Positions 2,749 through 19,379 of a DNA stretch of 34,863 bases are shown here, piece after piece. The stretch comes from Bacteroidota bacterium (lineage in GTDB: Bacteria; Bacteroidota; Bacteroidia; UKL13-3). Each line of letters opens with the position of its first letter. Positions within the stretch are counted from its first letter, which is position 1. The translations under genes and the position numbers were made by a program. The stretch lies in contig CANGGG010000032.1 in the NCBI GenBank assembly GCA_947453415.1, positions 1-34,863 of the forward strand, read 5' to 3'. The notes beneath the pieces were generated by a model, which was not told where the DNA came from, did no database searches, and worked only from the letters and a program-made list of their open reading frames with translations.

Positions 2749-3128
2749 GAAAAATATTTTTCAATTACTTCAATTTTTGTTTTTTAATTTTAAAACATTT
2801 GATTTCAAATTAATTTTATATTTAATGCAATAAATTAACACAAGAAATAATAGATTTTAGTGCATTTTTAATTCCAACAAACAATATTATTAAATTAAAT
2901 AAAATTGAAATATTTTCATTTAATTATCTCTCTATTTATTCTAAAAATTTTATTCTATTAATACTTATTATTTCTTTTTAGTAATAAAATATCAGCTTTT
3001 CAAATCATTATTATATTTTATTCCTGTTTTTAAAATCAATGATTTACATGCTATTATTAAACTATATTTTTTTATTAATTAATATGTTTTGATGGATTAA
3101 TTGCATAAAATTTTGATTAGAATTGAAT

Positions 3129-3142
3129 TTGACTATTATCAT
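3129..3142. promoter_or_regulatory. FNR/CRP-type operator-like palindrome (box 1)
   Basis: TTGACTATTATCAT matches the FNR-family consensus TTGAT-N4-ATCAA at 8 of 10 fixed positions. Its centre (3135.5) is 58.5 bp upstream of the last base of the -7 TTTG at 3194, identical to the spacing of box 2 and its promoter in front of the second operon. This puts it near -62 to -65 of the inferred start, the class I activator position for CRP/FNR proteins. Confidence 0.6.
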
Positions 3143-3166
3143 TTATACATCATCCTACAGTCATAT

Positions 3167-3194
3167 TTTGGTCATTAGATGTTGCTCACCTTTG
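3167..3194 (+). promoter_or_regulatory. promoter of the haem-lipoprotein operon
   Basis: A -33-like TTTG (3167-3170) and a -7 element CACCTTTG (3187-3194), close to the Bacteroidota form TAnnTTTG. The sequence around the -7 element (CACCTTTGTGAGGTAA) matches 13 of 16 bases of the corresponding sequence at 6055-6070 before the second redox operon. The expected transcript starts near 3200, about 37 nt before the first ATG. Confidence 0.6.
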
Positions 3195-3236
3195 TGAGGT
3201 AATTTTAAACAAAAAACAATTAAAATATCAAACATC

Positions 3237-4556
3237 ATGAAAAAAAAGTATTTCTATGGAGCTGTAATTTTAGCATCAATGTTAAGTTTCAGCTGTAAAC
3301 AAACAGATCAAATAGTAGATACCAATGTAACACCTGGACCAGAAATAGCTGCTCCCTCAGTAAATGAACTATTCACTTATTATGGTGCACCATCCGATCC
3401 TACCAACGCGCAAGTATTAGATGCCATGTGGGCAAAAGCTGAAGTGTTAACAGTTACTGCAACTGTGCCAAATCCAGCACCACCAAAATTGTTTCAAGGA
3501 TATTGGGGTAATACTTATAATGTAAGTTTAAAATCAATAACTGATACCATCGGTGGAAATATTTATTTCTTAGCAGAATGGAATGATCCTACAAAAGGAA
3601 TGGATCAAGCTCCATATTATTTCAATAGTACAACTCATCTTTGGGCAAAAGAATCAAGTAATCCGGTATATGATACTATTAATGGGGTGATGACTCGTAA
3701 AGGTTTTAACGAAGATAAGTTTGGCATTTTATGGAATATTTCAAGTGCAGAATTTGCAGCACAGTCATGTTATGGTACTTGCCATACTTATTATAGCTCA
3801 GCTACAAATCCTAACACTGGAACTGGAAACCATTGGACAAAAAGTTATTTAGATAAAGTTGACCAATGGCATTTCTATATGATGCGTGGAAATTATTATA
3901 AACAATGTTCAGATGAATTTCAAGATGATGGATATAGCGGTGCAAGTCCAACAACTTATACAGCTAGTGCTACTAATGGTCGTCACGTAGATGCAATTGG
4001 AAGTACCGCTTCAAGTAAAGGAACTTATAACAATGCTCAAACATTGAAACTTTCGAATAAAACTACAGTGAGTACTTCAGTTCCATTATGGATTTATTTA
4101 AATCCAACTGGTGATCAAATTTATTATATGTTGGATAAAGATACTTTGAATACTACAAATGCAAAATTTATTTTGTCTGTAGATTCAATGGGAGTTTTAT
4201 CTTATGGAAGTTCAAGAGGCGGAAGCGTTGAGGGAACAATTGATCCAAATGCATCAACAGATTATGCGCAACGTCCAAACAGTGTTTTACCAATTAAAAC
4301 ATTCCCAAGTTTAATTGTGTCTGCATATGAAGGTGGAAGAGCAGATGTTGGTGGATATACTTATCATGATGGTACAAAATGGCATATGATTTTCTCTAGA
4401 AAATTAAAAACTGGTGATATGTTAAATCAAGATGTTGATTTCTCAGATCGCGCTGATAAACAATTTGGAATTGGTTTCTTTGATAATGCAAACAACCAAC
4501 ATGCCATTTGCCCAGGATTAGTATTAAAATTCAAAAAACCAGTTTTATCTAAATAA
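3237..4556 (+). CDS. ethylbenzene-dehydrogenase-related haem-binding lipoprotein
   Basis: A 439-aa lipoprotein. Residues 1-20 are a signal peptide ending in the lipobox 'LSFSC', so Cys20 should be lipidated and the protein anchored facing the periplasm or the cell surface. Residues about 85-420 look like the EB_dh family, a beta-sandwich haem domain first known from the gamma subunit of ethylbenzene dehydrogenase. Typical blocks are 'IYFLAEWNDPT' (109-119), 'EDKFGILWNIS' (159-169) and 'DKVDQWHFYMMRGN' (206-219). A covalent haem motif is present in expanded form, CYGTCH at 178-183 (CX3CH). It is first in an operon with a cytochrome-like lipoprotein (25 bp gap) and a beta-barrel. Electron transfer is the likely role; the redox partner and any substrate are unknown. 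No catalytic alpha or Fe-S beta subunit of the ethylbenzene dehydrogenase type lies beside it. Confidence 0.8.
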   Translation: MKKKYFYGAVILASMLSFSCKQTDQIVDTNVTPGPEIAAPSVNELFTYYGAPSDPTNAQVLDAMWAKAEVLTVTATVPNPAPPKLFQGYWGNTYNVSLKSITDTIGGNIYFLAEWNDPTKGMDQAPYYFNSTTHLWAKESSNPVYDTINGVMTRKGFNEDKFGILWNISSAEFAAQSCYGTCHTYYSSATNPNTGTGNHWTKSYLDKVDQWHFYMMRGNYYKQCSDEFQDDGYSGASPTTYTASATNGRHVDAIGSTASSKGTYNNAQTLKLSNKTTVSTSVPLWIYLNPTGDQIYYMLDKDTLNTTNAKFILSVDSMGVLSYGSSRGGSVEGTIDPNASTDYAQRPNSVLPIKTFPSLIVSAYEGGRADVGGYTYHDGTKWHMIFSRKLKTGDMLNQDVDFSDRADKQFGIGFFDNANNQHAICPGLVLKFKKPVLSK

Positions 4557-4581
4557 TTAAACCCAATTAATTTTCAAGATT

Positions 4582-4992
4582 ATGTCAAGAAAAATAGCAA
4601 TTGGGTTATTACTAGCAAGCACCATTGTTTTATTTGGAATGTACAGTTGCACCAAGGACGTAACTGTAATCATTGAACCCTCACTAAGTTCAATACCCAC
4701 CAATAAAACAATCAGTTTTGCAAGTGATATAGTCCCAATCATATCAAAAAGTTGTGCAATGACTGGTTGTCATGTAACAGGAGGAAAATCTCCCGATTTA
4801 TCAGAGGGAAAAGCATTTGGATCTTTAAGTAGTGGAGGTTATTTAAATATTGCTAATCCTAAAAGTAGTAAAATATATCTTTCATTAACAGGCAAAGGAG
4901 GTTTACTTATGCCAATTGGTTCAGTCAATAACCCATCAAATTTAAATAATTTGATACTAATGTGGGTTCAACAAGGTGCCAAAAACAATTAA
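4582..4992 (+). CDS. small c-type-cytochrome-like lipoprotein with CX4CH motif
   Basis: A 136-aa lipoprotein. The signal peptide ends in 'GMYSC' with lipidated Cys23. The mature part resembles a single cytochrome c fold with the expanded haem motif CAMTGCH at 58-64 (CX4CH), and 'GGLLMP' at 107-111 offers Met110 as a sixth ligand. The C-terminus 'NLILMWVQQGAKNN' is the terminal helix usual for class I cytochromes ('W...GA'). Proteins with CxxxGCH motifs of this kind occur in Bacteroidota and Planctomycetota. It sits 25 bp after the EB_dh lipoprotein and 11 bp before the beta-barrel gene, so all three should share one mRNA. Single-electron transfer at a membrane surface is inferred. Confidence 0.75.
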   Translation: MSRKIAIGLLLASTIVLFGMYSCTKDVTVIIEPSLSSIPTNKTISFASDIVPIISKSCAMTGCHVTGGKSPDLSEGKAFGSLSSGGYLNIANPKSSKIYLSLTGKGGLLMPIGSVNNPSNLNNLILMWVQQGAKNN

Positions 4993-5003
4993 ATAATATT
5001 TAT

Positions 5004-5906
5004 ATGAAAAGCGAAAGAATAAATAAAATAGGCATTCAGAAAATTAAATTACTAATCATATTTAGTTTTCTGTTAAACATAGCCTTCAATGCAAATGCAC
5101 AAGAAGCTTTACCTAAACCCGAGCCTGTAAAATACACTTTTGAAGGAAATTATATGGGCGATAATCAAACAACAAGTTCTTTGTTTAAAAACAGTTTAGA
5201 ATTTATAATTCAACATCGTTTTGGAACAGTGAATAATGGATACAAAGATTTTTATGGCATTTATGCTCCATCTAATATTAGATTAGGTTTGAATTATGGA
5301 ATAACCAAAGACCTAATGATTGGTGCTGGATTCTGTAAAGACCGTTTGTTATGGGATGGAAATATTAAATATGCTATCATTAAACAAACGCCAAAACGAT
5401 CCCCTGTTAGTGTTTCCTATTATGCAAATTTTGCAGTAGATACAAGAGATGGAAAAGAAGTTACTTTTGTAAGTGATTTAGATAGGGTTTCATACTTTAA
5501 TCAAATACTTATTTCTAGAAAAATAAATAAGCATTTGTCATTACAAGTTGCTCCTAGTTATACTCATTTAAATAATGTAGTTGGTTACATTTCAAATAAA
5601 GAAGTTAAACCAACAATGTTAAACGATCATTTTGCAATAAGCTTTTTGGGTCGTTATAAATTATCGAGTGTAATGTCAATATTTGCTAATTATGACCAAC
5701 CATTAACTGTTCATCCCAAAAATAATTCACAACCTAATATTTCGTTTGGCTTAGAGATGAGTACTGGTTCACATACATTCCAAGTTTTTGCAGGAAATTA
5801 TAGTTATATTTTACAACAAAATAATAATTATTACAATATGAACGACTACAATGCTGGTCAGTTTTTAATTGGATTTAACATTACCCGTAGATGGGATTTT
5901 GAATAG
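5004..5906 (+). CDS. DUF5777-type outer-membrane beta-barrel protein
   Basis: A 300-aa protein with a signal peptide (residues 1-33, ending 'NANAQ'), followed by alternating amphipathic strands with turns such as 'HRFGTVNNGYKDFYG', 'NIRLGLNYGITKDLMIGAG' and 'HTFQVFAGNYSYILQQN'. It ends in aromatic/hydrophobic strands ('QFLIGFNITRRWDFE'), as expected for an outer-membrane barrel. The overall pattern matches DUF5777. A longer frame starts at 4962 inside the previous gene, but the ATG at 5004, 11 bp after the upstream stop, gives a proper signal peptide. It is the last gene of the operon before the hairpin at 5934. DUF5777 proteins have no established function. Together with two lipid-anchored haem proteins, a role at the outer membrane in the same electron pathway is plausible. 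Confidence 0.75.
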   Translation: MKSERINKIGIQKIKLLIIFSFLLNIAFNANAQEALPKPEPVKYTFEGNYMGDNQTTSSLFKNSLEFIIQHRFGTVNNGYKDFYGIYAPSNIRLGLNYGITKDLMIGAGFCKDRLLWDGNIKYAIIKQTPKRSPVSVSYYANFAVDTRDGKEVTFVSDLDRVSYFNQILISRKINKHLSLQVAPSYTHLNNVVGYISNKEVKPTMLNDHFAISFLGRYKLSSVMSIFANYDQPLTVHPKNNSQPNISFGLEMSTGSHTFQVFAGNYSYILQQNNNYYNMNDYNAGQFLIGFNITRRWDFE

Positions 5907-5933
5907 TAAATAGTTAGTTTTTTTTTGAAAGAG

Positions 5934-5962
5934 AGCAGTCAAATTTTTGGCTGCTTTTTTTT
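5934..5962 (+). terminator. Rho-independent terminator after the beta-barrel gene
   Basis: AGCAG-T-CAAA pairs with TTTG-G-CTGCT (5934-5955, one G-T wobble, short T loop), followed directly by a run of T to 5962. It separates the haem-lipoprotein operon from the Fe-S/NrfD operon. Confidence 0.8.
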
Positions 5963-5974
5963 AATTTTTTTTAA

Positions 5975-5988
5975 GTGACCATAGTCAT
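5975..5988. promoter_or_regulatory. second FNR/CRP-type palindrome upstream of the Fe-S operon (box 3)
   Basis: GTGACCATAGTCAT contains the perfect inverted repeat TGAC-N4-GTCA. Its centre (5981.5) is 22 bp, about two helical turns, upstream of box 2. The half-sites resemble those of boxes 1 and 2. It may be a second binding site for the same regulator. Confidence 0.45.
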
Positions 5989-5996
5989 TGCATTAA

Positions 5997-6010
5997 TTGA
6001 AAACTGTCAA
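5997..6010. promoter_or_regulatory. FNR/CRP-type operator-like palindrome (box 2)
   Basis: TTGAAAACTGTCAA is a perfect TTGA-N6-TCAA palindrome, matching the FNR consensus TTGAT-N4-ATCAA at 8 of 10 fixed positions. Its centre (6003.5) is 58.5 bp from the last base of the -7 TTTG (6062), exactly as for box 1 at the other operon. Confidence 0.6.
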
Positions 6011-6033
6011 GAAAGCGAGTGCCTCCAATCATT

Positions 6034-6062
6034 TTTGAAAAACCATTCACTTTACATCTTTG
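6034..6062 (+). promoter_or_regulatory. promoter of the Fe-S/NrfD operon
   Basis: A -33 TTTG (6034-6037), a 17-bp spacer and the -7 element CATCTTTG (6055-6062). The surrounding CATCTTTGTAAGGCAA is nearly the same as at the haem-lipoprotein promoter. Transcription should start near 6068, leaving a leader of about 70 nt. Confidence 0.6.
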
Positions 6063-6139
6063 TAAGGCAAAATAACATTTTCTATTAAGTAATATTTTAA
6101 GTAAAAATCAAAAAAATAATTATCAAACATATTTTGATT

Positions 6140-7075
6140 ATGAAAAACGAAAACGAAGAATCAAGTAGGAGGAATTTCTTAAAAATTGGCTTATTATCAA
6201 GCGGTGCTGTAATAGCAGGTGCAAGTATAATAAGTGCAATTACAAAGGAGGAAAGTAAAGAAACAGGTAAAAGGGTAAAGGTTTTAACAGCGGATGGTAA
6301 ATTAATAGAAGTTGACAGTTCACATATTCTAAATGGTAAATTCGAAGATATTGCAAAACGTGAAATTAGAGATGGAATAGATGGTAGAAAGTTTGTAATG
6401 GTTATTGATTTGGCTCGATGTGCAAATGAAAGAAAATGTATTACAGGTTGTCAAAAAATGCATTTTAAACAATCACCAACTGAATGGATTAAAGTAAAAA
6501 AAATGCAAGATACTGCATCCACCGCTCCCTATTGGATGCCTCAGCCATGCTTTCATTGCGATAATCCACCATGTACAAAAGTTTGCCCTGTAGATGCCAC
6601 TTTTAAACGTAAAGATGGTATTGTTTTAATTGATAATGATAGATGCATTGGATGTCGTTTTTGTATGGCTGCTTGTCCTTATAATTCTCGTTCATTTAAT
6701 TGGGGCGAAAATTGGGGGCAATCTCACGAACAAGCCGTTGCAAGTTGTAATTCACATTACACGCCTGAAACTAGCACACCTTCCAAAATGGGAACTGTAG
6801 AAAAATGTGATTTTTGTCCAGATATGGTAAAAGAAGGCAAATTACCTGATTGTGTAACTTCATGTCCTAATGGAACAATATTTTATGGTGATGCAAATGA
6901 AGACACTGTGTCTAATGGTGAAGAAACATTTAGATTAAGTGAACTTATTAAAAATCGTGCTGGTTATCGTTTTATGGAAGAATTAGGAACAGAGCCACGT
7001 GTTTATTATTTACCTCCAGTAAAACGTAATTTTCCTTTCGAAGATGATCTTGAAGTTCATAATACTCACGAATAA
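6140..7075 (+). CDS. Tat-exported 4x[4Fe-4S] ferredoxin-like subunit (NrfC/PsrB/DmsB family)
   Basis: A 311-aa periplasmic electron-transfer protein. The N-terminus has a twin-arginine motif 'SRRNFLK' (residues 9-15) before a hydrophobic stretch, so it is exported folded by Tat. Four cysteine groups follow: 94/100/104, 137/140/145/149, 169/172/175/179 and 223/226/238/242. In NrfC/DmsB proteins these bind four [4Fe-4S] clusters in a cross-paired way. The first group lacks the usual CxxC spacing (Cx5Cx3C). Such subunits take electrons from, or give them to, an NrfD-type membrane partner, here encoded 19 bp downstream. The ATG at 6140 is preferred to an upstream TTG at 6134. The usual molybdopterin catalytic partner is not encoded in the window. 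Confidence 0.88.
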   Translation: MKNENEESSRRNFLKIGLLSSGAVIAGASIISAITKEESKETGKRVKVLTADGKLIEVDSSHILNGKFEDIAKREIRDGIDGRKFVMVIDLARCANERKCITGCQKMHFKQSPTEWIKVKKMQDTASTAPYWMPQPCFHCDNPPCTKVCPVDATFKRKDGIVLIDNDRCIGCRFCMAACPYNSRSFNWGENWGQSHEQAVASCNSHYTPETSTPSKMGTVEKCDFCPDMVKEGKLPDCVTSCPNGTIFYGDANEDTVSNGEETFRLSELIKNRAGYRFMEELGTEPRVYYLPPVKRNFPFEDDLEVHNTHE

Positions 7076-7094
7076 TTAAAAAAAAACAATTAAA

Positions 7095-8462
7095 ATGGAA
7101 CATTCAAATTTAAATATAGAAGAACAAAATAATGAACGTCAAAGATTACGTGATGCAGTTTTAAAACCATTGCGCACTTCTACATTATTAAGCAAATTAT
7201 GGATTGCTTTTTTAGTATTTATAATTTGCATTGGTTTATATGCATATTATATTCAATTAACAAATGGTTTAAAAGTAACCGCACTTAGAGATTATGCCTC
7301 ATGGGGAGTATATATTTCAAATTTTGTTTTTTTTGTTGCTATTAGTCTTTGCGGTTCATTGATTTCATCAATCTTAAGATTAACAAATTTTACTTGGCAT
7401 TGGCCGATAACTCGTATTGCTGAAATCATTGCAGTAGCCGCCATTATGTTTGCAGGGCTCATTATTATAGTTGACATGGGAAGACCAGATAGAATTTACT
7501 ATTTATTCATGTACTTCAGAATTCAGTCACCAATTGTTTGGGACGTAGTTGTTGTAATGACCTATTTTACTGTTAGTTTTTTGTTTTTATATTTTCCACT
7601 TCTACCAGGAATTGCTATGTGTCGTGATTTACTTACAGAAAAACCACTTTGGCAAAGAAAAATGTATAAAATACTAGCGCTAGGTTGGAATGGAAATCAT
7701 AGTCAATGGAAAATAGTAAAAAAATGCGTAAATATTTTAAGTGTATTAGTTATTCCATTAGCAGTGTCAATTCATACTGTTACAGCTTGGTTATTTGCTA
7801 CAACCTTACGACCAGGATGGGATAGTACTAACTTTGGTCCGTACTTTGTTGCCGGTGCATTTTTAGCTGGAACAGGTTGTGTAATATTAGGTATGGCAAT
7901 TTTTAGAAAAGCATATCATTTAGAAGAATTTATTACAGAACAACATTTTAATTTTATGGGTAAATTGATGGTTTTTTTATGTTTAATATATGCATATTTT
8001 AACATCAACGAATATTTAGTACCTGCATATAAAATGAAAGTTGCAGAAGCACATCATTTAAGAGAATTGTTTTCAGGTAGTGAGGCTTGGCTATATTGGT
8101 CAGTTCAAATCATTGGAATGGCTTTACCAGCACTTCTATTGTTATTTAAGCCATTTAGAAAACCAATTCCTATAACAGTAATTGCTTTTGTAGTTGTAGT
8201 TGGTGCATGGTTGAAAAGATATTTAATCGTTTCACCTATTATGCTTAATCCTTATTTACCTATTCAAAATGTACCAGAAAATTGGAAACATTATTTTCCT
8301 TCATGGGTCGAAATATCAATCATTTCAGCATCACTTGCAGGTGTTTTATTGGTTATTACAATGTTCTCAAGATTTTTTCCAATTATGTCGAATTGGGAGG
8401 TGTTAGAAGGGCAAGGAATTGATTTAGAAATGCTTGATGATAAAAAAAATATTAAATTATAA
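7095..8462 (+). CDS. NrfD/PsrC-family membrane quinol oxidoreductase subunit
   Basis: A 455-aa integral membrane protein of the NrfD/PsrC family. Short hydrophilic ends flank about nine or ten hydrophobic helices. Family landmarks include 'ALRDYASWGVYISNFVFFVAIS' in an early helix, 'VDMGRPDRIYYLFMY', and 'PLAVSIHTVTAWLFATTLRPGW'. These proteins hold the quinol/quinone site at the periplasmic side and pass electrons to or from the neighbouring 4x[4Fe-4S] subunit, here the gene just upstream. In this phylum the quinone would be menaquinone. The next gene starts 5 bp after the stop, so translation is probably coupled. Whether electrons run from quinol outward or the reverse cannot be decided from sequence. 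Confidence 0.9.
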   Translation: MEHSNLNIEEQNNERQRLRDAVLKPLRTSTLLSKLWIAFLVFIICIGLYAYYIQLTNGLKVTALRDYASWGVYISNFVFFVAISLCGSLISSILRLTNFTWHWPITRIAEIIAVAAIMFAGLIIIVDMGRPDRIYYLFMYFRIQSPIVWDVVVVMTYFTVSFLFLYFPLLPGIAMCRDLLTEKPLWQRKMYKILALGWNGNHSQWKIVKKCVNILSVLVIPLAVSIHTVTAWLFATTLRPGWDSTNFGPYFVAGAFLAGTGCVILGMAIFRKAYHLEEFITEQHFNFMGKLMVFLCLIYAYFNINEYLVPAYKMKVAEAHHLRELFSGSEAWLYWSVQIIGMALPALLLLFKPFRKPIPITVIAFVVVVGAWLKRYLIVSPIMLNPYLPIQNVPENWKHYFPSWVEISIISASLAGVLLVITMFSRFFPIMSNWEVLEGQGIDLEMLDDKKNIKL

Positions 8463-8466
8463 TATC

Positions 8467-9024
8467 ATGAAAAATATTAAAATAAAACATTTAATGCTTT
8501 GTATAAGCTTTGTATTATATACTATCACTGCTTTTGCTCAAGATGAAACTCTAACGAGTGTACTAACTTTAAAACTGATAAAAAATGACACTATAAATAC
8601 ATGTGAAGCCACACTGATGGGCAATAATAAACCTGTTTCAGAAGTTAGTGTTCAATTCTATATTAAACGACAATTTAGTTTATTGCCCATTGGCAATCCT
8701 CAAACTACTGACGATTATGGAATAGCGAGTGTAGAATTCCCAAATGATATTCCAAAAGATTTAAATGGAACTGTTACTGTCATTGCAAAAATTGAAGATG
8801 ATGAAAAAGTGGGTTCTATTGATGCTCAAACAATTACTAATTTAGGAGCTAATCGATTAAATGATATAGATGAATGGAGTGTTAGATCTTTATCCTCTTC
8901 ACGAGAAAAAGCACCATTGGTTTTAATAATAATATCATTTTCTATAATATTTGGTATATGGGGAACAATTGTTTATGTAGTTTTTCAATTGGTTAAAATA
9001 AAAAAACTACAAAAAAATAATTAA
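8467..9024 (+). CDS. membrane-anchored periplasmic hypothetical protein
   Basis: A 185-aa protein I do not recognise by name. Residues 1-24 form a signal peptide ending 'AFAQ'. Residues about 28-125 are beta-rich with the look of an Ig-like or FixH-like sandwich ('NKPVSEVSVQFYIKR', 'DDYGIASVEFPND', 'NGTVTVIAKIEDD'). A single helix at about 152-176 anchors the C-terminus, which ends in a Lys-rich cytoplasmic tail. The frame is open from 8434, but that overlaps nrfD; the ATG at 8467 gives the signal peptide. Lying between the NrfD subunit and a cytochrome c, it may be an accessory or assembly subunit holding the periplasmic carriers near the membrane complex. This is inference from context only. 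Confidence 0.7.
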   Translation: MKNIKIKHLMLCISFVLYTITAFAQDETLTSVLTLKLIKNDTINTCEATLMGNNKPVSEVSVQFYIKRQFSLLPIGNPQTTDDYGIASVEFPNDIPKDLNGTVTVIAKIEDDEKVGSIDAQTITNLGANRLNDIDEWSVRSLSSSREKAPLVLIIISFSIIFGIWGTIVYVVFQLVKIKKLQKNN

Positions 9025-9055
9025 TTTAAACAATCATCTAATCATTAAAAACAAA

Positions 9056-9463
9056 ATGAAAAATCTAAAAAATCTAGTTGCAGGTGTAGTATTAACAACA
9101 TCTTGCTTATTAATCAGCCAAACAGCATTTGCGCAAAAACCAGCTGGAAAACCTTGGAATGCTCCTGAGTCAGCTATTAAAATAAAAAATCCTACTAAAG
9201 GCGATGATGCAGTAAAAGAAGGAAAAGACATATTTAATCAAAATTGTAAATCATGCCATGGCGCAAAGGGTAAAGGCGATGGAACTAAAGCTGAAAAAAT
9301 TGATATTTCATGTGGTGATTTTACTTCGGCTGAAACTGCTAAAAAAACTGACGGTGAATTATTTTGGAAAGCTACTGAAGGTAGAAAACCTATGCCTTCA
9401 TATAAAGAAAAATTAAGTGACAGCGAAAGATGGAAAGTAATAAGTTATATCCGCACATTGTAA
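9056..9463 (+). CDS. periplasmic monohaem class I cytochrome c
   Basis: A 135-aa protein with a signal peptide cut near residue 26 ('TAFAQ') and a class I cytochrome c fold. The canonical haem motif CKSCH is at 64-68, 'GKGDGT' follows, Met113 in 'KPMPSY' is the likely sixth ligand, and the C-terminal helix is 'ERWKVISYIRTL'. It is the last gene of the Fe-S/NrfD operon, 31 bp after the membrane-anchored protein. The small soluble carrier is the obvious link between the inner-membrane NrfD complex and the lipid-anchored haem proteins of the neighbouring operon. Note the contrast between its normal CX2CH motif and their CX3CH and CX4CH. Confidence 0.9.
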   Translation: MKNLKNLVAGVVLTTSCLLISQTAFAQKPAGKPWNAPESAIKIKNPTKGDDAVKEGKDIFNQNCKSCHGAKGKGDGTKAEKIDISCGDFTSAETAKKTDGELFWKATEGRKPMPSYKEKLSDSERWKVISYIRTL

Positions 9464-9490
9464 TTAATTAATTTAAAATCTTCATCAATA

Positions 9491-9523
9491 AAAAAGGCAG
9501 ATTCAATTTGAGTCTGCCTTTTT
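9491..9523. terminator. bidirectional terminator between cytochrome c and the CNNM transporter
   Basis: AAAAAGGCAGA (9491-9501) and TCTGCCTTTTT (9513-9523) form a perfect 11-bp stem around an 11-nt loop. The A and T tracts serve both convergent transcripts. Confidence 0.88.
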
Positions 9524-9554
9524 ATTAATATTAACTATAATTCAAAAATTAAAT

Positions 9555-10826
9555 TTATTCTGATTTGGCTAATACTTTTAAAATCACTTCTTCCACTTTT
9601 GCACCGCTCGATTTTTGAATAATAAATTCAAAATTATCAATTACAATTCTTTCCCCTTTTTGAGGAATATCCTCATGATTTGCAGTTATAAATCCACCTA
9701 AAGTATTGTATTCACCTTCGGGAATTAATAAGTCATATTTGGTGTTTAGTAAATGAATTTCAAGTCTGGCAGAAAACAAATATTCATTTTCGCCTAAAAC
9801 TTTTTCTGTTAAAGTTTCAGTATCATGTTCGTCATCTATTTCGCCAAAAATTTCTTCCATTACATCTTCAATGGTAACAATTCCGGCAGTTCCGCCTAAT
9901 TCATTTACAACTAATGCAATGCTGCTACGGGTTTTACTAAACCTATTTAAAACATCCATTACAGAAGTAGTTGCGGGCACAATTTCAATTGGAAAAACAA
10001 TTTCTTTTATTGAATCTACTTTTTTAAAAACTTCTTTTTGATGAACATAACCTATAATATTATCAGGTGTTCCTCCATAAACTAATATTTTTGATAATCC
10101 TGTTTCAACAAATTTGTTATATAAAATTTCTGGGGTTTCAGTAATGTCTATAATTTCTAAATCAGTTCTTGGTGTCATACAATCACGAACTTTTAATTTT
10201 GAAAAATCCAATGCATTTTTAAACATTTCAGTGTCCACTTCTACATCGTCATCTCTATCATTATCACTTACTTGATTGATATAATCATCTAAATCAATTT
10301 TACTAAAAACAGGATTTGATTCTATATATTTTATTTTTAAAAGGCTATTTAATATTATTTTTGAAAGCCAAATTATGACATGAACAATTGGCCAAAAAAG
10401 ATAATAAAACAACAAAAACGGCAGTGCTAATATATTCAAAACCAAATCTGGATTAATGCGGAAAAGTACTTTTGGTATAAATTCAGCGGTAAAAAGAACA
10501 ATTAAAGTTGAAATGATAGTTTGAGAAAATAGCAAAAGGAAATGATGAGTTTCTAAATATGGAACTAAATTTTTAAGAATAGGATCTAAAACTTCAGCCA
10601 TTGAAATACCATAAATAACTAAGCCTATATTGTTTCCAACCAGCGTAGTACTTATAAATTTGGAAGGATTATTTACAAAATTAGATAGAATATTAGCTGT
10701 AACGCTTCCTTGTTTGCTTTTTAATTCTATTAATAATTTGTTTGATGATATAAATGCTATTTCAGTGCCTGCAAAAAAAGCAGAAAACAAAATGCTGATT
10801 ATAATGATTGTATAATTTGGATCCAT
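9555..10826 (-). CDS. CNNM/CorC-family transporter with CBS domains (HlyC/CorC type)
   Basis: A 423-aa membrane protein with the CNNM order. An N-terminal DUF21 transmembrane domain (about 1-190, with 'FFAGTEIAFISSNK' and 'TLVGNNIGLVIYG') is followed by a CBS pair (about 205-325, 'VRDCMTPRTDLEIID' and 'ELGGTAGIVTIEDVMEEIFGEI') and a CorC_HlyC C-terminal domain (about 345-420, 'ARLEIHLLNTKYDLLIPEGEYNT' region). Family members are linked to Mg2+ or other cation export. The Bacteroidota gliding protein GldE is a relative, so a gldE identity is possible but not shown. The ATG at 10826 lies 16 bp downstream of a perfect TAnnTTTG element. Confidence 0.85.
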   Translation of the reverse strand: MDPNYTIIIISILFSAFFAGTEIAFISSNKLLIELKSKQGSVTANILSNFVNNPSKFISTTLVGNNIGLVIYGISMAEVLDPILKNLVPYLETHHFLLLFSQTIISTLIVLFTAEFIPKVLFRINPDLVLNILALPFLLFYYLFWPIVHVIIWLSKIILNSLLKIKYIESNPVFSKIDLDDYINQVSDNDRDDDVEVDTEMFKNALDFSKLKVRDCMTPRTDLEIIDITETPEILYNKFVETGLSKILVYGGTPDNIIGYVHQKEVFKKVDSIKEIVFPIEIVPATTSVMDVLNRFSKTRSSIALVVNELGGTAGIVTIEDVMEEIFGEIDDEHDTETLTEKVLGENEYLFSARLEIHLLNTKYDLLIPEGEYNTLGGFITANHEDIPQKGERIVIDNFEFIIQKSSGAKVEEVILKVLAKSE

Positions 10827-10841
10827 TAATTAAATAAAGTA

Positions 10842-10849
10842 CAAATGTA
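10842..10849 (-). promoter_or_regulatory. -7 promoter element of the CNNM transporter
   Basis: On the minus strand TACATTTG exactly fits TAnnTTTG. Its end is 16 bp before the start codon at 10826. No clear -33 TTTG was found. Confidence 0.5.
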
Positions 10850-10947
10850 ATTATATTTCCGATTATTTGAAAGTTGTCTAATTTCTTATTAATAAAAGGT
10901 CTGTTTTTTTCTATCTTTTTTCAGCTATGAAATGTGAAAAATAAACA

Positions 10948-10955
10948 TAGTTTTG
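10948..10955 (+). promoter_or_regulatory. -7 promoter element of leucine dehydrogenase
   Basis: TAGTTTTG fits TAnnTTTG exactly. It overlaps an in-frame TTG at 10953, which argues that translation starts at the ATG at 10980 instead. Confidence 0.55.
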
Positions 10956-10979
10956 CAGCCTTTAAAATTTAATATAAAC

Positions 10980-12047
10980 ATGTCAGATATTTTCTCTCAA
11001 TTGCAACAGCACGATCATGAGCAAATAGTTTTTTGCCAGGATGAGTACACAGGATTAAAAGCAATTATTGCTATTCATAATACTGTTTTAGGACCGGGTT
11101 TAGGTGGAACACGCGTATGGAATTATACAAGTGAAGCAGATGCGGTAAACGATGTTTTGCGTTTAAGTAGGGGAATGACTTACAAAGCCTCTATTTCAGG
11201 ATTGAATTTGGGCGGTGCAAAAGCTGTAATTATTGGAGATGCAAAAACGCTTAAAACTGAGGCTTTAATGCGTAAGTTTGGCCGTTTTGTTGAAAATTTA
11301 AATGGTAAATACATTACCGCAGAAGATGTTAATACTACTACTCGCGATATGGAATATGTTAACATGGAAACTAGCCATGTGGTTGGTTTACCAGAAAGCA
11401 TGGGCGGAGGAGGAGATCCTAGTCCTGTAACTGCTTATGGTGTTTTTGTAGGTATGAAAGCAGCTGCAAAACATGCTTTTGGATCTGATAGTTTATCAGG
11501 TAAAAAAATTGCAGTTCAAGGTGTTGGAAAAGTTGGTGGTCATTTAATTGAATATTTACACAAAGAAGGTGCTAAATTATTTATTACTGATATCAATGAA
11601 GAAATTCTAAAAAAATATAGCAAAGATTTTGGCGCAACTATCGTAACTGGTGAAGAAATTTATGGTTTAGATGTGGATGTTTTTGCACCTTGTGCAATGG
11701 GAGCAATATTAGATTCAGTAAATATTAACAGATTAAAATGTAAAGTAATTGCTGGTGCAGCAAATAATCAATTAGCTGACGAAAACATTCATGGTCCAAT
11801 GATTATGGAAAAAGGTATTGCTTATGCTCCTGATTTTTTAATTAATGCAGGTGGTTTAATCAATGTTTACCAAGAACATATTGGCTATAACCGTGAAACG
11901 GCTTTTGCTAATACTGAAAAAATTTATGATACTACTTTAGCTATTTTTCAAAAATCGGAAAAGTACAAAGTTCATACGCAAAAAGCAGCCACTGAATTAG
12001 CAGAAAAACGCATCAAAGACATGATGCGAGTTGGTTCAACTTACTAA
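10980..12047 (+). CDS. ldh: leucine dehydrogenase (Glu/Leu/Phe/Val dehydrogenase family)
   Basis: A 355-aa cytoplasmic enzyme that reversibly deaminates leucine and other branched-chain amino acids to 2-oxoacids with NAD+. The N-terminal domain has the glycine-rich 'GPGLGGTRVWNY' segment (about 39-50) and 'RGMTYKASISGLNLGGAKAVI', where the Lys in 'TYKAS' binds the substrate carboxylate and the Lys in 'GGAKAVI' is catalytic. The dinucleotide-binding fold shows 'VQGVGKVGGHLIEYL' (GxGxxG) with Asp at the end of the second strand ('ITDIN'), favouring NAD+. 'GAANNQL' and 'NAGGLINVYQE' are typical of leucine dehydrogenase. It is monocistronic, between its own promoter and a strong terminator. Confidence 0.9.
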   Translation: MSDIFSQLQQHDHEQIVFCQDEYTGLKAIIAIHNTVLGPGLGGTRVWNYTSEADAVNDVLRLSRGMTYKASISGLNLGGAKAVIIGDAKTLKTEALMRKFGRFVENLNGKYITAEDVNTTTRDMEYVNMETSHVVGLPESMGGGGDPSPVTAYGVFVGMKAAAKHAFGSDSLSGKKIAVQGVGKVGGHLIEYLHKEGAKLFITDINEEILKKYSKDFGATIVTGEEIYGLDVDVFAPCAMGAILDSVNINRLKCKVIAGAANNQLADENIHGPMIMEKGIAYAPDFLINAGGLINVYQEHIGYNRETAFANTEKIYDTTLAIFQKSEKYKVHTQKAATELAEKRIKDMMRVGSTY

Positions 12048-12054
12048 TAAAATT

Positions 12055-12093
12055 AAAAAGCTAAGTTTAGCATTTTGCTAAACTTAGCTTTTT
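12055..12093 (+). terminator. strong terminator after leucine dehydrogenase
   Basis: A perfect 18-bp stem (12055-12072 with 12076-12093) with a 3-nt TTT loop, A-rich on the left and ending in TTTTT. It is nearly symmetrical and could work in both directions, although the next gene is co-directional. Confidence 0.88.
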
Positions 12094-13242: not shown

Positions 13243-13719
13243 ATGAAAAGAATTCTTATTTCAACTTTAATTTTAACAACTATTGCTTGCAATAGCAATA
13301 CAGGAAATCAAGCAGGAACTGAAATTGTAACCAATCCAGCAACGGCCGAAAATCCCAATGCTGAAAATGTAAATGCAACCGAAATTACTTTTGAACAAAA
13401 CATGTTCGACTTTGGTACTATTAAAGAAGGAGAGTTGGTAAACCATAAATTTAAATTTACAAACACAGGTAAAAATCCTTTATTAATTACCAACGCATCG
13501 GCTAGCTGCGGATGTACTGTTCCTAATTGGCCAAAAGAACCCATTGCACCCGGGAAAAGTAGCGAAATAGATGTTACTTTTAACAGTGAGGGAAAACCAA
13601 ATCATGCAGAAAAAACAGTAACTGTTGTGGCTAATACTTCACCAACTAATACCATGCTTTTAATTAAAGGAGAAGTAACACCAGCTAATACATCGCCTAC
13701 AACACCAATAACTCATTAA
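13243..13719 (+). CDS. DUF1573 domain lipoprotein
   Basis: A 158-aa lipoprotein. The signal peptide ends at the lipobox 'TTIAC' (Cys16), followed by a Thr/Asn/Ala-rich linker to about residue 45. A single DUF1573 domain follows, an Ig-like beta-sandwich ('FDFGTIKEGELVNHKFKFTNTG', 'LLITNASASCGCTVPNWP', 'PGKSSEIDVTFNSEGK'). The 'SCGC' motif in the middle is the family signature; its role is not known. It starts 106 bp after nusB and 33 bp before yajC. Anchoring on the periplasmic side of a membrane is expected. Confidence 0.88.
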   Translation: MKRILISTLILTTIACNSNTGNQAGTEIVTNPATAENPNAENVNATEITFEQNMFDFGTIKEGELVNHKFKFTNTGKNPLLITNASASCGCTVPNWPKEPIAPGKSSEIDVTFNSEGKPNHAEKTVTVVANTSPTNTMLLIKGEVTPANTSPTTPITH

Positions 13720-13752
13720 TTTAAACCAAACAAAAACATAAATAAACACAAC

Positions 13753-14076
13753 ATGAATTTTACTTTATTACAAGCACCCGCTAATGGCGGAGGATGGAGC
13801 CTATTGATATTTTTTGTTCCAATGATTGCTATTTTTTACTTCTTTATGATTCGCCCTCAAATGAAGAAACAAAAAGACCAAAAGAAACTAATTGATTCCA
13901 TTGCCAAAGGCGATAAAATTGTTACCTTAGGTGGAATTCAAGCTAAAGTTACTGAGGTAAACGATAATTATTTAATTATTGAAAGCGAAGGTACTAAGTT
14001 AAGAATTAACAAAAGTGCAGTGAGCTTAGAAGCTACTCAAGCTGTGAATCCAGCTAAAAAGGAAGAAACCAAATAA
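13753..14076 (+). CDS. yajC: preprotein translocase subunit YajC
   Basis: A 107-aa protein with one N-terminal transmembrane helix (about 17-35) followed by the signature 'FYFFMIRPQMKKQKDQKKLIDSI' region and a cytoplasmic beta domain 'GDKIVTLGGIQAKVTEVNDNYLIIE'. YajC associates with SecDF and the Sec translocon. It lies 33 bp after the DUF1573 gene and is closed by a hairpin terminator. Confidence 0.95.
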   Translation: MNFTLLQAPANGGGWSLLIFFVPMIAIFYFFMIRPQMKKQKDQKKLIDSIAKGDKIVTLGGIQAKVTEVNDNYLIIESEGTKLRINKSAVSLEATQAVNPAKKEETK

Positions 14077-14098
14077 TAATTAAACATCATTATTTAAT

Positions 14099-14129
14099 AA
14101 AAAAGTCAGGCTCAGGTCTGACTTTTTTT
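14099..14129 (+). terminator. terminator after yajC
   Basis: AAAAAGTCAG (14100-14109) pairs with CTGACTTTTT (14118-14127) around an 8-nt loop, followed by more T. Confidence 0.85.
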
Positions 14130-14166
14130 GTTTTTTATAAAATTAGTATTTACTGATTATTTAAAA

Positions 14167-14174
14167 TATGTTTG
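14167..14174 (+). promoter_or_regulatory. -7 promoter element of the DUF898/M48 pair
   Basis: TATGTTTG fits TAnnTTTG exactly and lies 29 bp before the ATG at 14204. No good -33 box was seen. Confidence 0.45.
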
Positions 14175-14203
14175 ATGAATAATTTATTAAAAACATAAAA
14201 CTT

Positions 14204-15163
14204 ATGGAAGAAACAACTACAGCAGAAAAAAACTACAAGCTTGATTTTTATGGTAAAGGAGGAGAATTCTTTGGAATTATCATTGTTAATTGGCTGTTAA
14301 CTATTATTACATTAGGATTTTATTATCCTTGGGCAAAAGCAAAACAATTGAATTTTTTATATGGTTCTACCTCATTAAATAATGATCGATTTTCGTTTCA
14401 TGGAACTGGAAAAGAAATGTTTATTGGCTTTATTAAGGCAATTTTAGTTTTTGCTATAATTTATGGCTTATCTATCATGTTCATTTATATGCAAATGCCA
14501 ATAACCGGTATTTTAATATTATACGCGGGTATTTTAGGAATTATACCTTTGGCAATTCACGGCTCTTATCGTTACCGCATGTCTAGAACATCGTGGAGAG
14601 GAATTCGTTTTGGATACAGAGGAAATAGGAATGAATTTATGGTAAGCTTTTATAAATGGATTTTATTCACTTTAGTAACATTAGGAATTTATGGTGCTTG
14701 GCTTAGTATAAATGTAAGACGTTACGTTATGAGTAATGTAAAAATGGGAGATGTTTCTTTTAAATATGAAGCTAATGGTGGAGATTATTTTTGGTTAAAT
14801 TTTAAAAGCTATTTTCTTTCAATCATTACATTAGGAATCTATTCTTTTTGGTGGTACAGCGATTTATTGGCATTTTATGTAAACAATTTAAGTTTAGAAA
14901 AAGGAGAGGAGAAAATTACTTTAAAATCAACTGCTACTGGTGGAGATTTTTTTGGTTTATTAATAGTAAATTTGCTAATTATAGTTTTTACCTTAGGACT
15001 TGGTTATGCTTGGGTGGTAACTAGAACTATGAAGTTTTTAACTGATCACATTCAAATGGAAGGTAATATTGATTTAGATACAATCAATCAAACTGAAGAA
15101 GATTTTAACGATGCAACGGGTGAAGATATAGGCGACTTTTTAAATTTAGACTTTGCTTTATAA
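14204..15163 (+). CDS. YjgN-like DUF898 membrane protein
   Basis: A 319-aa membrane protein with three to four copies of the DUF898 repeat. Each copy is a 'GKGGEFFGI'-type segment followed by a hydrophobic 'NWLLTIITLGFYYPWAKAK'-type helix pair; similar blocks start near residues 16, 140, 195 and 245. It ends in an acidic tail rich in Asp and Glu. The function of DUF898 is not established. The stop codon overlaps the ATG of the M48 protease gene by one base (TAATG), so the two are translationally coupled, and this pairing recurs in other bacteria. A membrane partner for the protease is the natural inference. Confidence 0.85.
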   Translation: MEETTTAEKNYKLDFYGKGGEFFGIIIVNWLLTIITLGFYYPWAKAKQLNFLYGSTSLNNDRFSFHGTGKEMFIGFIKAILVFAIIYGLSIMFIYMQMPITGILILYAGILGIIPLAIHGSYRYRMSRTSWRGIRFGYRGNRNEFMVSFYKWILFTLVTLGIYGAWLSINVRRYVMSNVKMGDVSFKYEANGGDYFWLNFKSYFLSIITLGIYSFWWYSDLLAFYVNNLSLEKGEEKITLKSTATGGDFFGLLIVNLLIIVFTLGLGYAWVVTRTMKFLTDHIQMEGNIDLDTINQTEEDFNDATGEDIGDFLNLDFAL

Positions 15164-16227
15164 TGCTTAAAAACAATGCGGTATTATATGATGGATTATC
15201 ATCAACTTCTCAAAATATTGAATTAATTATAGACGAAAAAAATAATTTATTAGTTTTTAGCTCATCTGCTATTGGCCTCACAAAATGGCCAATAGCAGAT
15301 GTTTCGTTTTATAAAAGCAGTGACGTTTTAAATATTCATTATGGCTCAAACCCTGTGCAAATTGTTAAACTGCAAGACGAACAATTGATAACATATTTAA
15401 ACGATTATTTGAAAGAAAACGGACAACTTGGTTGGTATCAAAAATTAATTAATTTAGGTGTAAAAGTACATGTTATTATTGCCTTAGCAATTTTAGGAAT
15501 TATTATATTGGGTTATTTGTATGTGCTTCCATTTATTGCAGAAAAAGCAGTAGTTCTTATTCCTGAATCTTATGACATTGAAATGGGAGAACGTTTTTAT
15601 TCAGAATATATTGATTACAATGAAATAGATTCTACAAAAACAGTTGCGCTAAATTTATTTGCTAAGCAATTAAAATTAAATAATTCCAAAAAACTAAAAT
15701 TTACTGTTGTGGAGTCAGAAACTGTCAATGCTTTTGCGCTGCCAGATGGTAATATCATTGTGTTTACTGGACTGTTAAAATTAATGGAAAATTATGATGA
15801 ATTAGCTGGATTAATCGGACACGAAGTTACACACGTTAATCAGCGTCATTCTATGAAAATATTATGTAGAAATGTATCAGGATATTTATTCGTGTCGGCT
15901 GTTTTAAGCGATGTGAATGGAATAATGGCAACTATTGGCGACAATATTAACAATTTGAATTCATTGTCTTATTCTCGTAGTTTTGAGCAACAAGCCGATG
16001 AAGAAGGGTTGGATTTAATGCTTCAAAATAATATAAATCCAAAGGGAATGACCAATTTATTTAAACGTTTACAAAGTGAAAACAATATTGATATCCCTCA
16101 ATTTTTAAGTTCTCATCCAGTTACTGAAAACAGGATTGATTATATTCAAAATTTAATAAAAGAAAAGAATTTTAAAAACATTGAAAATCCTATTCTGAAA
16201 GGATATTTTATTAAACTAAAAAAATAA
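15163..16227 (+). CDS. membrane-anchored M48-family zinc metallopeptidase
   Basis: A 354-aa protein. Residues 1-100 form a small beta-rich domain, one transmembrane helix lies at about 108-128, and the peptidase domain spans about 150-345. The zinc motif HEVTH (about 226-230, in 'GLIGHEVTHVNQRHS') and the third ligand in 'FEQQADEEGLDLM' mark family M48. 'SHPVTENRIDYIQ' near the C-terminus is also typical. M48 members such as BepA and HtpX-like proteins act in envelope quality control. The start codon overlaps the stop of the DUF898 gene. A perfect 15-bp inverted repeat lies inside the early coding region and is listed separately. Confidence 0.88.
   Translation: MLKNNAVLYDGLSSTSQNIELIIDEKNNLLVFSSSAIGLTKWPIADVSFYKSSDVLNIHYGSNPVQIVKLQDEQLITYLNDYLKENGQLGWYQKLINLGVKVHVIIALAILGIIILGYLYVLPFIAEKAVVLIPESYDIEMGERFYSEYIDYNEIDSTKTVALNLFAKQLKLNNSKKLKFTVVESETVNAFALPDGNIIVFTGLLKLMENYDELAGLIGHEVTHVNQRHSMKILCRNVSGYLFVSAVLSDVNGIMATIGDNINNLNSLSYSRSFEQQADEEGLDLMLQNNINPKGMTNLFKRLQSENNIDIPQFLSSHPVTENRIDYIQNLIKEKNFKNIENPILKGYFIKLKK
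15263..15301 (+). repeat. perfect 15-bp inverted repeat inside the M48 gene
   Basis: CATCTGCTATTGGCC (15263-15277), a 9-nt spacer, and GGCCAATAGCAGATG (15287-15301). In mRNA this would be a stable hairpin about 100 nt after the start codon. It encodes residues 34-47 of the protease, so it is constrained by coding as well. Confidence 0.75.
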
Positions 16228-16300
16228 AAAAGTTTGAAATAAGCCAATCGCTTTAAGGATTTATCCTCCTTTGGTATTATCATCAACTGAATTTGAGAAG

Positions 16301-16325
16301 TTAGTGAGGACACCAACCTCGGACA
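16301..16325 (+). repeat. copy of the GTGAGGACACCAACC interspersed repeat (one arm intact)
   Basis: The 25-bp arm beginning TTAGTGAGGACACCAACC and ending CGGACA is almost the same as the right arm of the hairpin at 31137-31160. A poorly matching left arm can be traced at about 16259-16287, so this looks like a decayed hairpin copy. It lies between the M48 gene and the convergent endonuclease-like gene. Confidence 0.65.
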
Positions 16326-16331
16326 ATAAAA

Positions 16332-17176
16332 CTATTTTATTTTAAAAATTGCTTCCACAGCTAAGTGGTCTGAAGGATAATATTCGCCATTATTATCGTT
16401 AATAATTTGGTAGTTTTTTAGCTTAAAATTTTTATCGTAAAATATAAAATCTATCCTTTTACATATATTACTTTTTACTTCAAATCCTGTAAAAGTACAA
16501 TCCTTATTTTTACTTTTTATATAACTGTCTTTGAATGGATGATTGTTGTAATTAGTAATGTTACTATAAGCTACTGAGTTTGGTTCTGAGTTAAAATCAC
16601 CAGATAAAATTACAGCATCATTGCCCGCTATTTCAGTTATTTTATTTAAAATAAGCTTCGCACTTTCTTGTCTAGCTGTTTCCCCAATATGATCAAAATG
16701 AGTATTGAAAACAAACAACGATTTGTTAGTTTTTTTTAGCTTCACTTTTCCATAACTACAAATTCTGGTAATGGCCGCATCCCAACCTTTACTTCCTGCT
16801 ATTTCGGGAGTTGGCGATAACCAAAAAGTGTTAGAGGTTACTAATTTAAACATGTTTTTTTGAAAAAAATAGCCGAAAATTCTCCTTTTTCATTTCCGTC
16901 ATCTCGTCCAACGCCCACATAAAAATAGTTGGATAACATGGTTTGTAAATCCAATATTTGGTTATATAAACCTTCTTGAATGCAAAGTACATCGGGCGAA
17001 TGTTTTTTCAATAATGAGTCAACTGCATTGGTTCTTTTTCCCCATTGATTTGCTCCATCTATCGCCACATCTAACCTAATATTATAGGTAATTACTTTTA
17101 TTTGTTGAGCAAAAATTGAATTTATTCCAATTATAAAAAGAATGAAAAAGAATAGAAAATTTTTCAGATTTAGCAT
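16332..17176 (-). pseudogene. endonuclease/exonuclease/phosphatase family protein, split by a frameshift
   Basis: Two minus-strand frames, 17176-16841 and 16853-16332, together make one secreted EEP-family protein (DNase I-like metal-dependent phosphoesterases). The first part has a signal peptide ('NSIFAQ'), 'VITYNIRLD' and the catalytic 'CIQEG'. The second has 'NTHFDHIGETAR', 'LSGDFNSEPNS' and 'SDHLAVEAIF', so every catalytic motif survives. The break is at 16855-16869, where the coding strand reads T7-C-A7; one missing base in either run, or a -1 slip, restores the frame and gives continuous homology ('FSAIFFKK' to 'NMFKLV'). It may be a recent pseudogene, a homopolymer sequencing error, or a gene expressed by polymerase slippage. 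Confidence 0.75.
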
Positions 17177-17228
17177 GGTTTAAATAGATAAATATTTGAG
17201 TAAAATGATTGAGTAAAATAATTTAAAA

Positions 17229-17416
17229 GAAAGGTCGGCTTTTGAATAAAATCCGTAAATGAATAGGATTTAGCCTCCACAGGAGTCGCAACCTTCTAAC
17301 GTTTTCAGTAACAAGTTACCAAAAATCCCCGAGGGTAAAAAAGCCTGATTTTGACAAAGCGGTTCAGCTGTTTATTAAATGGTATTAATTTTTTTCAAAT
17401 ATTACACCGACCTTTC
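17229..17416 (-). ncRNA. 188-nt structured RNA, 6S RNA-like
   Basis: The minus-strand RNA begins GAAAGGUCGG and ends CCGACCUUUC, a perfect 10-bp closing stem. Further pairing supports a long rod: UUUGAA with UUCAAA next to the closing stem, AACC with GGUU further in, and an apical UUACC/GGUAA hairpin close to the middle. On the 3' side CUCC-UGU-GGAG (17275-17285) forms a small hairpin like the one in the central bubble of many 6S RNAs. Length (about 185 nt is usual) and architecture fit 6S RNA, which binds the RNA polymerase holoenzyme by mimicking an open promoter. A perfect -7 element lies 6 nt before the 5' end. The primary sequence alone does not prove the family; a structured leader of the endonuclease-like gene 53 bp downstream is the alternative. 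Confidence 0.55.
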
Positions 17417-17421
17417 AATGG

Positions 17422-17429
17422 CAAATATA
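17422..17429 (-). promoter_or_regulatory. -7 promoter element of the structured RNA
   Basis: TATATTTG on the minus strand is an exact TAnnTTTG. Its end is 6 nt upstream of the first base of the closing stem at 17416, just where transcription should begin. Confidence 0.6.
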
Positions 17430-17491
17430 GGTTTTAAAAACAAAATGATTGGTAAAGTTAAAATGAATTTTATTATTAAAAATGATTACTG

Positions 17492-17510
17492 CTTAGCGCC
17501 AATTGCTAAG
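17492..17510 (-). other. small hairpin after the 62-aa gene
   Basis: CTTAGC (17492-17497) pairs with GCTAAG (17505-17510) around a 7-nt loop, 9 bp beyond the stop of the 62-aa protein. A TTTTT run follows only some bases later, so it is at best a weak terminator separating that gene from the structured RNA. Confidence 0.3.
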
Positions 17511-17518
17511 TCTAAACA

Positions 17519-17707: not shown

Positions 17708-17779
17708 GATGCAATTTTAGGTATTGTTTTTTTAATTCTGTACTGATTTTTATTTGAAAACAATTTTACTTCAAAATTC

Positions 17780-19258: not shown

Positions 19259-19272
19259 AAAATTCAGTGGAC

Positions 19273-19280: not shown

Positions 19281-19379
19281 ATTGTTTTTTGAGTATTTCT
19301 ATTGCTTTTAGCAACTAACATTTTATTAAATTTGTATGGTTTTAAAACATTTTAGCGCATTTAATTATTTATATATTTA

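Follow-up and report, generated by a model that had tools for sequence, protein, structure and literature searches.

Quinol dehydrogenases made of an NrfC-type iron-sulphur (Fe-S) protein and an NrfD-type membrane subunit, feeding cytochromes without any catalytic subunit, have been described in Shewanella (SirCD) and Geobacter (CbcSTU) (PMC11434368), and putative extracellular electron transfer genes have been reported in Bacteroidetes from a humic lake (PMC6344600). We analysed a 34,863-base stretch of DNA (the window) from the 2.9 Mb genome of a lake bacterium, in which seven genes at 3237-9463 (the module) encode an NrfC-type and an NrfD-type protein, an Ig-like anchored protein, a monohaem cytochrome c, two lipoproteins (an EB_dh-fold protein and a small CX4CH protein) and a DUF5777 outer-membrane beta-barrel. 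The seven open reading frames were verified at the positions first given, and the Pfam matches (EB_dh, DUF5777, ferredoxin, NrfD and cytochrome c) agreed with the gene set proposed in the initial annotation. The best explanation, to which we give about an even chance (0.5), is a minimal relative of alternative complex III (ACIII): a quinol:cytochrome c oxidoreductase that supplies an outer-membrane haem port whose ends are interchangeable, under FNR-type control. It is drawn from features read in the sequences, namely gene content, conservation, kinship of NrfD with ActC, the retained quinone-site Ser/Asp and gate Arg, an altered distal cluster in NrfC, an exchangeable gene (X) at the outer-membrane end and FNR-type boxes.

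This conserved respiratory gene cluster is apparently undescribed: no description of it was found in the open-access literature searched, which leaves most subscription papers and preprints uncovered. To that extent the initial statement that no system of this composition had been described holds; the view that NrfC and NrfD without a catalytic partner are unusual in themselves is contradicted by the SirCD and CbcSTU precedents. What appears to be new is this cluster; catalyst-free NrfCD pairs were already known.

The quinol-linked core and alternative complex III

With ACIII (ActABCDEF) the locus shares an NrfD nearest to ActC, an NrfC resembling the Fe-S part of ActB and a cytochrome c resembling ActE; it differs in having no pentahaem ActA, no molybdenum-cofactor-like ActB domain, no ActD and no ActF, and in its additional outer-membrane haem genes. 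The best solved relatives of NrfD were four ActC chains of ACIII (phmmer, E-values of 3e-50 to 9e-56, with full-length coverage in the best match), so that the ActC-type NrfD subunit serving as a criterion for ACIII is present. In ActC, the quinone site includes a strictly conserved Ser and an Asp, and an Arg is the proposed gate (PMC8076601). The corresponding NrfD residues, Ser145 and Asp150 (ActC Ser164/Asp169), were kept in 106/106 sequences and Arg375 (ActC Arg395) in 104/106; two of the four listed quinone-site residues, ActC His139 and Asp253, are replaced in NrfD by Asp/Cys and Leu/Ile. By sequence, then, NrfD appears to be nearer to ActC than to the NrfD of nitrite reductase, the type to which it had initially been likened, and the locus does not belong with the NrfABCD nitrite reductases, NrfA being absent from the genome. 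The best NCBIfam equivalogs were those of DsrMKJOP (DsrO for NrfC, 177.3 bits against a cut-off of 200; DsrP for NrfD, 128 against 350), yet neither cut-off was reached and no DsrMKJ genes were seen.

The closest relatives of NrfC in the PDB were ArrB, PsrB and ActB. Alignment gave 15 cluster cysteines, not 16, which refines the initial description of a 4x[4Fe-4S] protein. Position 97, where the first motif should have its second Cys, is Cys in 6/33 relatives; the other 27/33 have Ala, Leu or Glu there. In NarH-type proteins this motif ligates cluster FS1, the one nearest the catalytic subunit, and the loss of Cys97 from the distal cluster is what would be expected where a catalytic subunit is absent. 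The PDB matches of the monohaem cytochrome c include cytochrome c552 and ActE of ACIII, and the Ig-like anchored protein is a probable scaffold.

In many loci the N-terminal extension of NrfC has a free-standing counterpart of about 85 residues, encoded just before nrfC and beginning with a twin-arginine-like sequence (Table 1); it is possibly an extra subunit or an export helper. One further locus (L033, contig C21 of genome G195, 9137-10078) encodes an NrfC 66% identical to that of the window with no adjoining NrfD, Ig-like or cytochrome c gene, an orphan or decayed copy.

The module shares with the SirCD/CbcTU kind an NrfC and an NrfD linked to cytochromes and the absence of a catalytic subunit, as mapped over 116 NrfC gene runs. 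In contrast to SirCD/CbcSTU, to which it is likened by description, its partners are monohaem CX4CH and EB_dh lipoproteins, a 12-strand barrel and an Ig-like anchor protein. The ACIII marker TIGR04519 was found on a separate contig (C29) of the same genome and in 20/23 other module genomes, indicating that the module is an addition to ACIII and not its replacement.

No catalytic subunit was found near the locus, in agreement with the initial annotation. The only PF00384 molybdoenzyme of the genome looks, from its sequence and neighbouring gene, like a cytoplasmic formate dehydrogenase, and no periplasmic PF00384 catalytic subunit (Psr, Dms, Ttr or Arr type) was found in the genome. Searches of this genome gave no match for NrfA (PF02335, present in 2/72 genomes searched), none above the cut-off for NirS and nothing for PF13435. 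A catalytic partner elsewhere in the genome was thus sought among NrfA, NirS and periplasmic molybdoenzymes, which are absent, and among NirK (with one CXXCH motif) and NosZ, which are present on other contigs but unlinked. The nirK gene opens a stretch (locus L174, contig C54:1-10000, at 2852-10000) in which a carbonic-anhydrase-like gene comes next, then moaA and other genes of the molybdopterin-biosynthesis type, even though the genome has no PF00384 enzyme besides the formate dehydrogenase. The nosZ gene belongs to a clade II nos operon (locus L064, contig C5:18000-37900, at 13310-19682) in which a cytochrome c gene is followed by nosZ and then by nos-type genes.

The outer-membrane genes and the exchangeable position

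Porin-cytochrome conduits (MtrCAB, OmcB type) and Cyc2 resemble the second part of the locus in pairing lipoprotein cytochromes with an outer-membrane barrel. The differences are a 12-strand barrel with a monohaem partner here, not a 26-strand MtrB with a multihaem MtrA inside, and, in comparison with Cyc2, a haem protein and a barrel encoded by separate genes rather than a haem domain fused to a porin. The AlphaFold2 model of DUF5777 (mean predicted local distance difference test, pLDDT, of 86) is a 12-strand barrel whose Foldseek matches are small porins and channels such as FapF, NanC and COG4313, not the large MtrB. No paper naming DUF5777 was found in the open-access literature searched, and its function appears to be undescribed.

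The CX4CH protein has no Pfam match. Its family profile matches FoxE (5mab, 7e-7), hydrazine synthase alpha and cytochrome c6; in the alignment of 20 sequences P52, C58, C63, H64 and W128 are invariant and the lipid-box C23 is conserved in more than 90%, and some family members have CX2CH at the same place. The cytochrome matches and the CX2CH relatives indicate a genuine haem-c family. DUF5777 follows CX4CH in 65/74 cases, and neither a CX4CH-DUF5777 fusion nor a long DUF5777 fusion was found among the sampled genomes. The same genome carries a second DUF5777 locus (L065, contig C8:2500-22400, at 9330-12071) with a dihaem protein, two CX4CH lipoproteins, DUF5777 and YceI. Judging from their sequences and the barrel model, the two lipoproteins with a conserved lipid-box Cys beside the 12-strand barrel probably form the outer-membrane end of the system.

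The gene directly upstream of CX4CH (X) encoded EB_dh 24 times, a hexahaem lipoprotein 11 times and a YceI-like lipoprotein 8 times; in other loci it was a Reeler-like CTSCH protein ending in a type IX secretion system sorting domain. Explaining the EB_dh label on the NrfC tree (53 rows) takes 14 changes, and well-supported branches force at least 11 gains or losses. To judge from these sequences, the gene before CX4CH-DUF5777 is an exchangeable position. The hexahaem X protein matches the outer-membrane domains of MtrC/MtrF, a likeness to MtrCAB-type systems, and passes the Pfam cut-off (33.6 against 30 bits), a comparison in which the haem motifs by themselves can give short, haem-rich profiles a score.

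In EB_dh itself the CX3CH motif (C178-H183) and the lipid-box Cys20 are invariant in an alignment of seven sequences; EB_dh may therefore bind a haem c in addition to the b haem that belongs to its fold. Its family profile matches subunit C of nitrite oxidoreductase (7b04_C, E 6e-6). The EB_dh haem-binding fold is common to that subunit, to the gamma subunit of ethylbenzene dehydrogenase and to the protein studied here, which differs from both in its invariant CX3CH motif and lipid anchor and in having no molybdenum alpha subunit nearby.

Gene order, FNR-type boxes and distribution

The locus consists of two transcription units (3237-5906 and 6140-9463; Table 1). Only two perfect TGAYNNNNRTCA sites exist in the window, at 3130-3141 and 5976-5987, one before each unit, an arrangement with a chance probability of about 4e-4, and extra half-sites or sites at a 22-bp pitch lie beside both. 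Genome-wide, the highest-ranking tandem match is the site before nrfC, with 1 mismatch of 16; only this top match is meaningful, because the genome-wide total of the tandem pattern (100) did not exceed that of the reversed-pattern control (108). A first scan with the TTGAY...RTCAA consensus gave little signal above shuffles, and the core TGAYNNNNRTCA did give signal: in other loci, 26 kb of DNA upstream of the module contained 68 sites, where mononucleotide shuffling predicts 1.7. A second half-site at exactly +22 was present in 18/50 module regions; each of the remaining offsets had 0 to 4. The module does not have the box to itself, since other upstream regions of the same loci were also enriched (1.3 sites per kb against 2.6 for module regions) and showed the 22-bp spacing (29/123 against 18/50). 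Genes of the CRP/FNR family, mostly with an N-terminal Cys motif, occur near the module in many loci.

Table 1 Features of the locus in the window, and small proteins preceding nrfC in other loci.
Feature	Position	Strand	Basis or remark
FNR/CRP-type box TGACTATTATCA	3130..3141	+	before the EB_dh operon; extra GTCA half-site about 22 bp downstream
EB_dh-fold haem lipoprotein (predicted), exchangeable X position	3237..4556	+	Pfam PF09459 3e-19
CX4CH monohaem lipoprotein, FoxE / hydrazine-synthase-alpha / cytochrome c6 type	4582..4992	+	family alignment, FoxE 5mab profile match
DUF5777 outer-membrane beta-barrel, 12 predicted strands	5004..5906	+	PF19089 2e-75
Tandem FNR-type boxes, 22-bp pitch (5976, 5998, 6020)	5976..6031	+	8/8, 7/8 and 7/8 matches; precede nrfC
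Bacteroidetes-type promoter after the tandem boxes	TTTTG at 6033, TTTG ending at 6062	+	before nrfC
NrfC-type Fe-S protein, twin-arginine signal and N-terminal extension, 15 cluster Cys	6140..7075	+	Pfam 4Fe-4S ferredoxin domains, NCBIfam
NrfD/ActC-like quinol-interacting membrane subunit	7095..8462	+	Pfam NrfD 1e-32; phmmer ActC 9e-56
Ig-like (Big_1) protein, signal peptide and C-terminal membrane anchor	8467..9024	+	Big_1 1.7e-4, below cut-off
Periplasmic monohaem class-I cytochrome c, ActE-like	9056..9463	+	PF13442 3e-14
Separate proteins of about 85 residues upstream of nrfC	L049:10111-10377, L046:10617-10874, L118:9694-9933, others		

A second metagenome-assembled genome (locus L066), 96.2% identical over 14 kb, keeps the same gene order and both boxes, which shows that the locus is no assembly chimera. 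A one-genome-per-species scan gave at least 559 NrfC loci, the best 80 of which were taken for analysis, and 116 distinct NrfC gene runs were counted, 58 of them cut by a sequence end. These runs included NrfD in 111, the Ig-like protein in 99, cytochrome c in 85, DUF5777 in 60, CX4CH in 56 and EB_dh in 23; the four-gene core NrfC-NrfD-Ig-cytochrome c was found in 81/116 and all seven families in 20/116. Two sets of genes are stable, NrfC-NrfD-Ig-cytochrome c and CX4CH-DUF5777; the seven as a whole are not fixed. EB_dh was present in 14/24 strong module genomes compared to 8/223 others (p 2e-11). A failure of the families to co-occur in other genomes, the outcome named beforehand as counting against the initial proposal, is contradicted by this strong co-occurrence, seen in the core runs and in the CX4CH-DUF5777 order alike.

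NrfC relatives were found in 26/247 Bacteroidia genomes and in 0/8 sampled genus and family neighbours, which suggests horizontal spread. Named isolates with NrfC loci are Flavobacterium soyangense, Eudoraea adriatica, Niastella vici, Pinibacter aurantiacus and Pelagihabitans pacificus, and some loci lie in records labelled Chlorobiota, Myxococcales and Spartobacteria. Many loci come from oxygen-stratified boreal lakes and Lake Pavin (PMC8121793), in a database whose sampling is biased. A heptahaem anchored protein and a cytochrome b561 precede the module in some Bacteroidales loci (L119:456-1460, L098:1560-2177), as if forming a second quinone-linked arm. Upstream of the locus, positions 922-2101 of the window encode two proteins: one of the VIT family (iron/manganese transporter type) and, after it, a small secreted one that belongs to no Pfam family and has a cysteine-rich motif, CSNGACAEC.

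Electron path, acceptor and rival explanations

Topology, the order and direction of electron flow, the final acceptor and whether ions are pumped are what we infer from these features. In the proposed path, the ActC-like NrfD would oxidise menaquinol at the periplasmic face and the clusters of NrfC, held by the Ig-like anchor protein, would conduct the electrons to the monohaem cytochrome c, which would take the place of a catalytic subunit as their acceptor. From there they would pass to the CX4CH lipoprotein in the inner leaflet of the outer membrane, beside the DUF5777 barrel, and through the exchangeable haem protein (here EB_dh with its CX3CH motif) to a final acceptor, which most likely lies at the outer membrane or beyond it (humic substances, ferric iron) or is a periplasmic acceptor of low specificity. 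An FNR-type regulator would turn on both operons under low oxygen or in the presence of nitrogen oxides. Of the relay from menaquinol to an outer-membrane or extracellular acceptor first suggested for this locus, the quinol link, the outer-membrane haem part and the FNR-type boxes find support, and the extracellular acceptor is the conjectural part. The surface-type or MtrC-like character of some X proteins and the many loci from oxygen-stratified lakes favour an outer or extracellular acceptor; the link to nos favours a periplasmic one.

Several observations weigh against this path. The fold of EB_dh was poorly predicted (pLDDT 51), leaving the X protein without structural support, and the YceI-like X proteins are not haem proteins by sequence. 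With 12 strands against the 26 of MtrB, the barrel is much the smaller, and a cytochrome inside it cannot be demonstrated. DUF5777 is near-universal (220/247 Bacteroidia genomes) and CX4CH-DUF5777 occurs without NrfC, near YceI genes, in several Bacteroidia genomes, indicating that the pair has another, older use; the module seems to have recruited this older outer-membrane haem-barrel pair. To these are added two observations on nitrous oxide reductase: the nos operon has one perfect TGAYNNNNRTCA box (L064, 13241-13252) about 60 bp before its first gene, which also fits a periplasmic acceptor, and NosZ is commoner in module genomes (17/24 compared to 67/223 others, p 1.4e-4), more weakly so in comparison with same-family genomes (17/24 compared to 19/46, p 0.02).

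The box and the NosZ counts, together with a nosZ that has its own cytochrome c and with nirK in the same genome, speak for a dedicated quinol:cytochrome c oxidoreductase serving soluble reductases of the periplasm, chiefly the clade II nitrous oxide reductase, with the outer-membrane genes as accessories. We consider this rather unlikely: three module genomes (G100, G109 and G143), 99-100% complete, are without NosZ, NirS, NrfA, or NirK above the cut-off, so that no single nitrogen-oxide enzyme can be the fixed partner; no nos or nir gene turned up within the module loci; ACIII is there already; and the linked CX4CH-DUF5777-X genes are left unexplained.

The repeated exchange of X beside an otherwise constant module, and the unusual CX3CH motif of EB_dh, could also mean that X itself, as the terminal enzyme, reduces a small molecule (NO, peroxide or an organic acceptor) and that its exchange is a change of substrate. 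This seems improbable, given that the YceI-like and Reeler-like X proteins are unlike enzymes of small-molecule reduction and that, in the enzymes known to have them, EB_dh domains serve as electron-carrier subunits. Inward flow, from an external donor such as Fe(II), which would give up its electrons at the outer membrane, to quinone, on the pattern of Qrc-type complexes, could be argued from the kinship of CX4CH with the Fe(II) oxidoreductase FoxE and from the menaquinone-reducing QrcCD, also of the NrfCD type (PMC8076601, PMC13059093), and is very improbable in view of the ActC-like NrfD (ActC oxidises quinol), of FNR-type boxes that suggest anaerobic use and of a FoxE match to a general cytochrome domain.

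The minimal relative of ACIII with an outer-membrane haem port thus remains the preferred reading. It may, as a tentative extension, represent an undescribed extracellular or outer-membrane respiration of Bacteroidota, in which an ACIII-derived quinol oxidoreductase is joined to a port of monohaem cytochrome and barrel into which terminal haem proteins plug, and which would be used where waters and soils are poor in oxygen, for humics, iron or other large acceptors. Oxygen-poor lakes, soils and sludge harbour abundant Bacteroidota, and there are hints of extracellular electron transfer among them (PMC6344600) with no defined path from the quinone pool. The cluster is a concrete candidate for such a path, testable in cultured strains, and would show how an ACIII-type core can lose its catalytic head and be put to new use with outer ends that are exchangeable.

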